From IMG/VR virus record IMGVR_UViG_3300024999_000422, positions 1-22,688 of that record: a DNA stretch of 22,688 nt. The stretch is one strand, 5' to 3'. This stretch comes from a virus. The notes below the pieces were generated by a model that did not search any database, had not been told where the DNA came from, and worked only from the letters and a program-made list of their open reading frames with translations. Shown piece by piece: positions 1-5,854 of this stretch (position 1 is the first letter of the stretch; every line of letters starts with the position of its first letter). The translations under genes and the position numbers were made by a program.

Positions 1-955
1 GATTGTTTCTTCTTAATATAAGCATACCACTAGGTACTGTAAAGCAATATTTAAATCCATCTAATGTTTTATATTGTTCTATTTTAGTAATAGTATGGTC
101 TTCTCTTCTATCCGTACATAAACTTATTAAGTTTCTTCTTGTAAATTGAACACCATATTCAATGGATTTTCTTATGTATACTTTATTTGCAGTGATATAT
201 TCTTGATTTACTCTATCTAGGGTATCAATGGTCGCTTTATAGCCGCAAACAACACCTACGAACTGTATAAAATCCGCATCTGATTTTATTGTTGTAAACC
301 ATCTATTTTTCCTTTTAAATTCTCCATCCCAATAAAATATTTCATCATAGATAATTTCGAATTGCTCTTTTGAACAATCGTACCATTTGCTTGTAAAGGT
401 TTTCTCGTTGTCTTTATAATAAAATTTATATACATTGTATCCTTCTGCTCCATTTAATATTTCATATTCAATATTATTTTTTGCTAAGAGATATTCAATT
501 CTTTCTTTTTTCCTTTGCTTCTTAACATTAATATAACAATCAAAAGGTTTATACTTTTTACTTTTAAAACTACCATCTGCCTTTATAGCTACCTTTAATC
601 GGATTTCCCATTCATTATAAGGCAACCCTTTTCCTTCATAGTTAAATGTTGTAATGAATTTTCCTTTAAATCCAGTCTGTTCATGATTTTCTTTAACTTC
701 CTTAAAGGACTTATGATAAAGATTATTTTTTGATGTAATGTAATAAACTTCATGCTCATCAGACAAACATTGATCTAGCCCATATTTTGTTTTGAAATTC
801 CATAAGTAATCTGACTTATACTTGTGAAATTGTGAAGGAATAACCAATTCGGCGGTTTTGCTTTTATTATATTGTAAAACATACTCCCCACTTTGATATT
901 CTAAAATCTTTTTCCATTCAGTTCCATTAAAGTATTCTGTGTCACAATCAACGCA
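1..955 (-). mobile_element. Intein with LAGLIDADG endonuclease domain, inserted in the helicase P-loop (last residues off window)
   Basis: In-frame protein-splicing element. The N-terminal splicing block starts at Cys368 (codon 953-955) with CVDCDTEYFNGTEW, directly after host residues GSAG. A His-containing stretch (QCLSDEHEVYYI) follows. The first LAGLIDADG-type motif is LKVAIKADGSF (Asp494) and the second is IYDEIFYWDGEF (Asp577), both with the catalytic Asp in place. The C-terminal block reads YCFTVPSGMLILRRNN at the window edge. By comparison with other phage inteins, only the last few residues (ending His-Asn plus Cys, Ser or Thr of the C-extein) should be missing. The frame has no stop or shift, so both splicing and homing functions look intact. 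The visible intein is 318 codons. Insertion at Walker A is a known favoured intein site in ATPases. Confidence 0.9.
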
Positions 956-2056
956 CCCCGCCGAACCAGTTAAAGCTAAGATATTTTTATCTATCATTAT
1001 CTTAATTGTCTCAATTTGTTCAGGAGTAAATTCATATCCTTGTTCTTTTTCAACTTCCTTTATAACATCGTCCCAATTTTCGATCTCAAATGGTTCACTG
1101 CGTTCTGCATTAAGTAGCCTAATCAGTTCATTATAGATATTCATCTCTAAATCATAATATCTCTTCAATCCAATAAGTTGACCATCACTAGATACATTAA
1201 TTTCTTTCTTATCAAGTAGTTGTTTTGCAACATCATTGATTATATCTTGCTCAATAAATCCAATTTGATCAAAAACAATATTCATTAATTCACTAAAATG
1301 TAAGTAACTCCTTCCTATTTCTCCGTTCTCAGATAATGTGTTTATAATACACGCTTTAACTCGTCTTGAATCATTACCCGTCATACCAATTTTCTGTGCA
1401 ATTTCATCGGCCTTTTTGAACCCTAATCCACTCACCTCAACTAATTTATATGGATTACTTTTAACAATATCAACCACTATATCGGGAGATTTATAAAAAT
1501 CTAATAATTTATTTATTAGATTTGCACTTAGGTTGGCATTGCTCAATTCTGTATAAATTTGAGAATAATCTTTACAATCTTCAAATTCTTCAATTATTCT
1601 CATGGCGGTAGCATGACCTATTCCATTAATTGACGTAAGTGCGGAAATGTCTTTATCTTCTAATAATGTAATTACATCATCATACTTTTCAAATAATTTA
1701 TATACTATATTTGGATTAATTATACCTTCTAAAAAATCAATTTGTTGTGACTTATTAGTTAAATCTATTTTCTTATTGATAAAAAGTATTTCATATGTGT
1801 CTCCATGTGTTTCATTTCTTTCAGCCAATTTACAAGCAACTTTATATGTTACATAACTTTCTAATTTGCATACTTTACCTTTTAATTTAATTTTCGATTT
1901 TCCCCAAAGTAATTTAAGGTCTTCGCAGTTTTCAATTTTGTTAACTATGTTAGCTACGAAAATGGCAAATTCGCCACTTTCCACTTCGAATCTTAATTTG
2001 GGGAAGAATATTCTATCTAACTCTATTTCACATTTTAATATTTTTTCATTTTCCAT
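1..2056 (-). CDS. recD2: RecD2-like helicase interrupted by an intein (3' end outside window)
   Basis: The reading frame is open for 685 codons from ATG 2056-2054 to the window edge, so the protein is incomplete. The start follows AAGGGGG and lies 15 bases after the polymerase stop. Residues 1-367 are the N-terminal host part. They include helix-hairpin-helix-like stretches (SINGIGHATAMRI and EVSGLGFKKADEIA), as expected ahead of the motor in the RecD2/RecD-like superfamily 1B 5'-3' DNA helicases. A Q-motif (FTPEQIETI) follows, then ILALTGSAG, the first half of a Walker A loop. At residue 368 the loop is broken by Cys and intein sequence, and the missing GK(S/T) and all later helicase motifs must lie beyond position 1. 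The role inferred is unwinding or processing of DNA during phage replication or recombination. The gene is last in the visible replication operon. The helicase family is fairly sure; RecD2 rather than another RecD-like branch is inference. Confidence 0.85.
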   Translation of the reverse strand, partial: MENEKILKCEIELDRIFFPKLRFEVESGEFAIFVANIVNKIENCEDLKLLWGKSKIKLKGKVCKLESYVTYKVACKLAERNETHGDTYEILFINKKIDLTNKSQQIDFLEGIINPNIVYKLFEKYDDVITLLEDKDISALTSINGIGHATAMRIIEEFEDCKDYSQIYTELSNANLSANLINKLLDFYKSPDIVVDIVKSNPYKLVEVSGLGFKKADEIAQKIGMTGNDSRRVKACIINTLSENGEIGRSYLHFSELMNIVFDQIGFIEQDIINDVAKQLLDKKEINVSSDGQLIGLKRYYDLEMNIYNELIRLLNAERSEPFEIENWDDVIKEVEKEQGYEFTPEQIETIKIMIDKNILALTGSAGCVDCDTEYFNGTEWKKILEYQSGEYVLQYNKSKTAELVIPSQFHKYKSDYLWNFKTKYGLDQCLSDEHEVYYITSKNNLYHKSFKEVKENHEQTGFKGKFITTFNYEGKGLPYNEWEIRLKVAIKADGSFKSKKYKPFDCYINVKKQRKKERIEYLLAKNNIEYEILNGAEGYNVYKFYYKDNEKTFTSKWYDCSKEQFEIIYDEIFYWDGEFKRKNRWFTTIKSDADFIQFVGVVCGYKATIDTLDRVNQEYITANKVYIRKSIEYGVQFTRRNLISLCTDRREDHTITKIEQYKTLDGFKYCFTVPSGMLILRRNN

Positions 2057-4567: not shown

Positions 4568-5854
4568 CGGTTACACCCTAGCTTTCGCTATATTTTCACA
4601 CTCAATTAAGAGTGGGACTAGACTATATCTTCACCTTCCGACCTTTACGGCTAAGGTGTTCCGCACTTCGAATGGTAGTATCCCCACCCTACTCTCCCTT
4701 GAGATAGTCGTTGCACCTTCCTTATTATTTCTAATAAGACTTGGCACAGGATTGCCATATCATTTCTGACTTAGGTTTCCCCTGTTAGCATATTCATTAA
4801 CACTCATTTCCTAGTGCTACTAATCGTTGAATACACACCCTATTACAATCTAGGTTCACGGAAATTAACATCTACTATTTCTAATAGACTCGACTTAGAC
4901 TCTCTCTTGTTGTTGATATGCCTCTTTTACTTCTTTGTATTTTTCATATTTTCTGTCTAAATAAATTGTGGCATTTTTATAAAGTGTATCTAGTATTCTT
5001 AATACTTGAATGTTTCCACCAACATTAAAAGAATAGTTGTTTGTGCCTTTTTCTGGATGTCTTTGATGAGATTTCAAATGTGGAATATTTAAAAAAACTC
5101 TTTATTCCGTCGATTAATTCTTTCGTACCTACTAGACCCAAACCAATATTGATTTTATTATTAGGTTTGCAGTAATAACTTATACTCCCATCTCCATCAA
5201 TATATCCTCTGACAAAGTGGTGGATTAAATATTGAGGAACTTGATTTTCCTTTGGAAACAACAGAACGTTAGATTTTTTGGTTACACAACCTTGTTTTAT
5301 TAAATCATTAGATAATTTATTACTGGCAATTAAAATTCTGCAATATGGTTTACTGTTAAAATCCCCTTTCGTTTCATAAGTAGATATGTTTGCTGTTGAT
5401 TTTAGACTATTCTTAAATTTCTCAATATGTGAAATGTCACTTGCCGTTAAAGTGATACCAACACTATATCCACTATGTTTTCTCTTATTCAGAATATAGC
5501 CATCAGCATACATAAACCCTAACCAGTATGCTTTTTCTTCTGTGTTAATTATTTCAAAAAAGTCTTCATTACAAATACTTTTTAAAGCTTGCTCCCTATC
5601 TGTACGGATAGGAATATTATATTCTTTCATTAAATGGGAAATTAATTTTTGACTACATTTCATCAATTCACCAATTTTAGTCTGAGATAGACCTTCATTG
5701 TATTTGCTTTTAATGAAATCTATATGATTATCTGTAATAACCGGGGGAGTATTTAAACCATTTAATCTTTCAAATATCAATTTTTTCACCTCCTTTCAAT
5801 ATATTTTCTACAAAGAAGTAATATTACTATATCACGACAATAGATAATCTCTTA
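4568..5854 (-). ncRNA. Group I self-splicing intron in the DNA polymerase gene
   Basis: A 1287-base insertion splits the polymerase frame. Exon 1 ends ...GAT (5855-5857) followed by in-frame TAA, and exon 2 resumes with ATT GAT GTG GAT at 4567. These boundaries give an uninterrupted ELAD-IDVD protein and obey the group I rule of T before the 5' splice site and G (4568) as last intron base. The catalytic core lies in the 3' 327 bases. P4 pairs ACAGG (4781-4785) with CCTGT (4746-4750) inside the Q-like AATCCTGTGCCAAG (4740-4753). P7 pairs GACTAT (R, near 4703-4716) with ATAGTC in AAGATATAGTC (S, near 4621-4631). A P6a hairpin (TCTTATT/AATAAGG) lies between Q and R. The extra sequence between the P7 strands fits subgroup IA, which is common in phages. 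I did not identify a convincing P1. The 5' part holds the endonuclease gene. Confidence 0.9.
4895..5780 (-). pseudogene. Intron-encoded LAGLIDADG homing endonuclease, frameshifted
   Basis: The upstream frame carries a DNA-binding helix-turn-helix-like segment (LSQTKIGELMKCSQKLISHL), then two LAGLIDADG motifs, YWLGFMYADGYI and FVRGYIDGDGSI, each with its catalytic acid. Such enzymes cut the intronless allele to spread the intron. The frame stops at 5025. The expected C-terminal part (YSFNVGGNIQVLRILDTLYKNA and beyond) continues in another frame to the TAA at 4895. Removing one T from the seven-T coding run (A7 at 5091-5097 on the plus strand) restores one frame of about 294 residues. The start is probably TTG 5778-5780, eight bases after AGGAGG. 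The GTG at 5787-5789 overlaps that site and is unlikely. The gene is either inactivated, rescued by slippage at the homopolymer, or affected by a sequencing error. Confidence 0.85.

Follow-up and report, generated by a model that had tools for sequence, protein, structure and literature searches.

In this study, we analyzed a 22,688-base IMG/VR virus contig (record IMGVR_UViG_3300024999_000422, positions 1 to 22,688; the whole stretch is called the window here) and concluded, with a probability of roughly 0.93, that within it a mobile intein of the class 1 type, bearing LAGLIDADG motifs, interrupts in frame the Walker A motif (GSAG↓CGKT, the arrow marking the insertion point) of a phage RecD2-like helicase. 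The analyses confirmed that ORF 2056-2 on the minus strand encodes the N-terminal half of a RecD2-like helicase, interrupted by a LAGLIDADG intein. Relatives of this intein were found at the same position of the same short motif in numerous unrelated enzymes of phages.

Host gene and anatomy of the intein

ORF 2056-2 is free of stop codons for 685 codons up to the contig edge, and five IMG/VR relatives (L003-L007) align with the whole of it at 68-71% identity; such a long open frame together with these end-to-end matches argues against a chance arrangement. The part of the helicase present in the window is the RecD2 N-terminal region with its HHH domain, as identified by TIGR01448 over residues 26-367 and by HHH_RecD2 (E=3.5e-22), and the SF1B motor domains AAA_30, SH3_13 and UvrD_C_2 are present in the relatives L016, L020 and L091. 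A preliminary description of this DNA had proposed a RecD2-like host, and these models, together with the helicase motifs of the relatives, agree with it. It had also read an intein N-terminal block starting from a Cys straight after GSAG, two LAGLIDADG motifs and a C-terminal intein block at the window edge, all of which were recovered (Table 1), the last of them as block F.

Table 1. Features of the interrupted helicase gene in the window.
Feature	Position	Strand	Basis
N-extein, 367 N-terminal residues of RecD2-like SF1B helicase; its last residues, ...ALTGSAG, include the first half of Walker A	956..2056	minus	RecD2 models
GSAG of Walker A	967-956	minus	ORF translation
Intein cut by the contig edge; 318 of about 325 residues lie in the window (323-329 in close relatives)	2..955	minus	Relatives and motifs
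Intein Cys1 (ORF residue 368), directly after ALTGSAG	955-953	minus	ORF translation
Block A with Cys1 (CVDCDTEYFNG)	923..955	minus	Cys1 in 54/54 family members
Block B with invariant His (LDQCLSDEHEV)	746..778	minus	His (window H68) in 54/54 members
LAGLIDADG motif 1 (RLKVAIKADGSF)	566..601	minus	Catalytic Asp in 54/54
LAGLIDADG motif 2 (FEIIYDEIFYWDG)	323..361	minus	Asp in 53/54
Block F (YCFTVPSGMLILRRNN)	2..49	minus	Block G and +1 residue beyond the window

The window copy keeps all splicing and endonuclease residues as far as its sequence reaches. The 54-member alignment showed no variation, wherever the residues are present, in Cys1, the His of block B, the Cys of block F, the Asp of LAGLIDADG motif 1 and the terminal Gly-Asn; the block F His position was variable, the His of L003 being Gly in the window copy.

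The replication block of the window showed likeness to SPbeta-like Bacillus phages, with DnaE 43% identical to that of SPbetaL1. A group I intron of 1,287 nt (4568-5854; Rfam RF00028, 63 bits) interrupts the neighbouring dnaE gene (exons 7198-5855 and 4567-2072, minus strand) at its catalytic Asp motif, with PELAD on one side and IDVDTEAA on the other, and dnaE of L004 and L005 is uninterrupted at this site. A LAGLIDADG ORF within the intron (5789-5025, minus strand) has its frame broken near 5075, with the remainder in another frame, so either the gene has lost its function or the assembly contains an error here.

The C-terminal junction

Block G, which reads IFITGN in the relatives, lies outside the window record with its final strand, its Asn and the +1 residue, and no near-identical contig extending the window to the left was found in IMG/VR. 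The relatives L003-L007 all read ...RRNGSIFITGN↓CGKTATLNGIV... and continue in the same frame through the helicase core; the IFITGN↓CGKT of the relatives thus gives the complete Walker A motif as GSAG↓CGKT. Gly-Asn were the last two intein residues in all 53 full-length relatives (alignment A2), and a terminal Asn followed by a Cys, Ser or Thr at +1 was observed at 81 of 81 loci, the window's own junction being beyond the contig edge. We infer that the window copy ends like its relatives. For the junction, the preliminary description had expected His-Asn, then Cys/Ser/Thr-Gly-Lys, then helicase motifs in frame: in the relatives Cys-Gly-Lys is there and helicase motifs follow CGKT, with Gly-Asn in place of His-Asn. 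A penultimate Gly is uncommon among inteins generally. One mycobacteriophage intein with a penultimate Gly splices, and changing this Gly to His slows its splicing (PMC5050341).

Since the Hint fold is common to inteins and to other Hint domains, and the C-terminal junction lies beyond the window, a bacterial intein-like or hedgehog-type domain that cuts the helicase short without splicing was also weighed. However, in the relatives the remainder of Walker A and the helicase core come in frame after the terminal Asn, intact homologues lack exactly the intein segment, and a two-motif endonuclease is nested inside the Hint domain, which leaves this alternative extremely improbable. Equally improbable is an artefact at the window edge, through a chimeric contig or faulty assembly, as the origin of the junction. 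The location at a contig end and the failure to find a second contig of the exact phage would point to it, but the same junction is present at 14 RecD2 loci from separate contigs, a few of these being near-copies, and in GenBank phage isolates, and the residues and frame of the intein are intact.

Fold, class and detection

AlphaFold models of the complete L003 intein (mean pLDDT 96.2) and of the window copy (94.3) showed a Hint fold plus a two-motif endonuclease, matching VMA inteins and PI-SceI. The L003 model scored Z 13-23 against solved inteins, its best full-length PDB matches being TliVMA (Z 23.1), PhoVMA and PI-SceI (Z about 20). Foldseek matches included I-DmoI and PI-SceI, and no whole-length solved structure closer than VMA or PI-SceI was listed by VIA-align and Foldseek. 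PI-SceI and TliVMA share the two-domain architecture and match over the full length in structure, at only 12-14% identity, and PI-SceI ends in His-Asn. The endonuclease is accordingly predicted to be of the LAGLIDADG (DOD) type, with two helices bearing acidic residues. Cys1, the block B His, the precise in-frame insertion and the Hint fold place the intein in the class 1 type, for which splicing is predicted.

At the sequence level, phmmer with the window intein yielded chance matches only in the PDB, and the family profile reached AceL NrdHF (PDB 6zgq; E 2.8e-8), the closest solved relative by profile, with a Hint-domain match of Z 18.4. The PDB entry holds a 165-residue split intein of class 3, whereas the window intein is contiguous, keeps Cys1 and carries an endonuclease. 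Class 3 was considered for the window family as well because of the shared Cys at F4 and the mostly Thr at G5 (WCT triplet), and was ruled out since B12 is Val, Met or Ile instead of Trp and Cys1 is present; where AceL NrdHF has its Trp, two positions beyond the block B His, the family has Val, Ile or Met.

The preliminary description had suggested a search with TIGR01445 and TIGR01443. This turned out negative: the window intein matched neither these models nor PF14890, although other inteins were detected by the same model libraries. The two NCBIfam models matched 0 of 54 family members, and PF14890, the Pfam intein splicing model, gave a weak match to one and missed 53. A match to these models is a criterion of detection and not a defining feature of inteins.

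The intein family and its insertion sites

A tblastn search with the intein alone matched 187 GenBank phage records, and a scan with the intein alignment found 154 related stretches in IMG/VR, 80 of which were kept. In bacterial genomes, the intein was not found with a single-sequence query, and a profile query gave one locus in a Spirochaetes MAG, which adjoins a RecT-like gene and is probably phage DNA. Among the resulting 81 loci (80 from IMG/VR and the MAG locus), 79 had the insertion at Gly↓[Cys/Ser/Thr]-Gly, nearly always in Walker A. By Pfam, the hosts included RecD2, SNF2 helicases, primase-helicases, DnaB, RecA-like proteins, DnaX, terminase, PIF1 and RNA ligase/kinase; RtcB (DIG↓CGM) and ribonucleotide reductase (KTG↓CGN) are exceptions outside Walker A, where G↓CG is the only common feature. 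GenBank phages added PhoH and NadR, and more distantly NAMPT, TOPRIM and NrdE. In L033 (1793-5416), a vitamin B12-dependent ribonucleotide reductase contained two inteins, one of the window family (at KTG↓CGN) and the other matching TIGR01445/TIGR01443.

RecD2 P-loop inteins were also found in Enterocloster phages and other IMG/VR contigs, in genes annotated as plain hypothetical proteins or exodeoxyribonuclease V. Overall, 74 of 80 related phage RecD2 genes had an intact P-loop, and six carried an intein of the window type. Three of the former (L106, L157 and L158) had a different intein, located at the helicase motif HK↓CQGSG and recognized by TIGR01445 in L106 and L157, the two examined, so phage RecD2 has at least two intein sites. 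No RecD or RecD2 intein allele was reported in the literature searched, which covered few subscription journals and did not extend to InBase. Within that literature the idea of a new allele in the preliminary description held, and the site proved not to be unique to the window phage.

PHROG 32482, a profile named PhoH-like, matched the window at 2-1030. Its positions 51-405 align with the intein itself, and proteins that contain the intein may hence carry a wrong PhoH label. Phage Switzer gp56, noted as a DNA primase, is perhaps one such case. The mycobacteriophage TOPRIM ("DNA primase") intein that it exemplifies is a remote tblastn member of the family (22% identity) sharing the TGN end; it sits on a very long tree branch, and its site is AEGE↓CDT, not a P-loop.

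Insertion into the Walker A of an ATPase was likewise observed for TerL1-a/b of mycobacteriophages, haloarchaeal MCM-a and archaeal VMA-b (PMC5050341, PMC10643990). Those inteins occupy other hosts and the classic site after the conserved Lys (K↓T/S), whereas the window intein lies two residues earlier (G↓xGK) and in RecD2. The Bethlehem RDF intein (PMC5050341), for which splicing is experimental, starts with Cys and has a penultimate Gly as in the window family; its host protein differs from RecD2, and the two are likened by these residue features alone. P-loop inteins, phage inteins and inteins with a penultimate Gly are thus already known, and the window element is a new allele.

Movement between host genes

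Intein and host relationships were found to disagree. Between the window and L003 (the same locus as L015), the helicase N-parts were 90% identical and the inteins 48%; conversely, the inteins of the window and L021 were 75% identical with helicase N-parts at 33%, and those of the window and L043 74% with N-parts at 20%. L021 and L043 shared 91% of intein residues versus 21% in the N-exteins and 28% in the C-exteins. A tree of 70 inteins grouped the window with L021 and L043 (100/98) and required seven changes for the RecD2 hosts. Moreover, AU tests rejected a clade of the window intein with the L003 group (p=5.4e-5) and a single clade of RecD2 inteins as opposed to the DnaB and SMC-like ones (p=2.4e-5).

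The apparent jump between unrelated genes is clearest for the RecD2 gene of L009 and the DnaB-like gene of L010 (Enterocloster phage), whose intein DNA was 86.5% identical with flanks at the random baseline. In this pair the endonuclease part (dN 0.087, dS 0.154) was closer than the splicing part (dN 0.203, dS 0.414), which would fit a mosaic element. Taken together, the comparisons indicate an intein that passes from one RecD2 gene to another, distant one and, on fewer occasions, from one P-loop gene to an unrelated one, with G↓[CST]-G codons as the site in almost every case; it thus looks like a mobile parasite of one short motif.

A decayed or regulatory intein, which still splices or only cleaves, has a dead endonuclease and owes its distribution to old vertical descent with losses, is a quite unlikely alternative. 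The variable block F His position would fit it, and the absence of the intein from 74 of 80 related RecD2 genes is a pattern that losses could also give. Nevertheless, both LAGLIDADG acidic residues are present, the strong conflict between intein and extein relationships speaks against vertical descent, and dN/dS is low in the endonuclease part. Between the window and L021 it was about 0.12-0.13 in both domains (0.17/1.29 and 0.17/1.36, with dS near saturation), which suggests purifying selection with both functions kept.

The DNA core common across hosts, GGN↓WSN GGN AAR, does not exceed what coding for Gly-x-Gly-Lys demands, so the core gives no means of telling enzyme recognition apart from retention under selection. 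It is established that inteins prefer conserved sites, where their loss is hard (PMC2814812). We tentatively propose, at somewhat below even odds, a single phage intein lineage whose endonuclease may read this degenerate Walker A core and thereby enter many unrelated P-loop ATPases.

Proposed mechanism

For the mobile, class 1-type intein favored here, both splicing and cutting by its endonuclease are predicted from the conserved residues, and recognition of the P-loop codons by the enzyme is likewise conjectural. First, an N-S acyl shift would occur at Cys1, aided by the block B His, after which the N-extein would be taken over by the +1 Cys, Ser or Thr. Second, the terminal Asn, which here follows a Gly and not a His, would cyclize, and the exteins would be joined to restore an intact ATP-binding loop; the unspliced helicase would not be expected to bind ATP normally. 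At the DNA level, the two-motif endonuclease would cut the intein-free Walker A coding sequence, and repair would copy the intein in.

Significance

Our results add RecD2 as a recurrent host of phage inteins and describe a phage intein family that is widespread, concentrated on one position of one motif and poorly covered by standard models. Because those models overlook the family, intein-bearing phage ATPases are annotated as hypothetical or mislabelled. Whether the P-loop is favored through endonuclease recognition of its codons or through loss of insertions elsewhere is now a testable question, and the near-identical copies in unrelated genes provide a rare chance to study the arrival of an intein in a new host gene.
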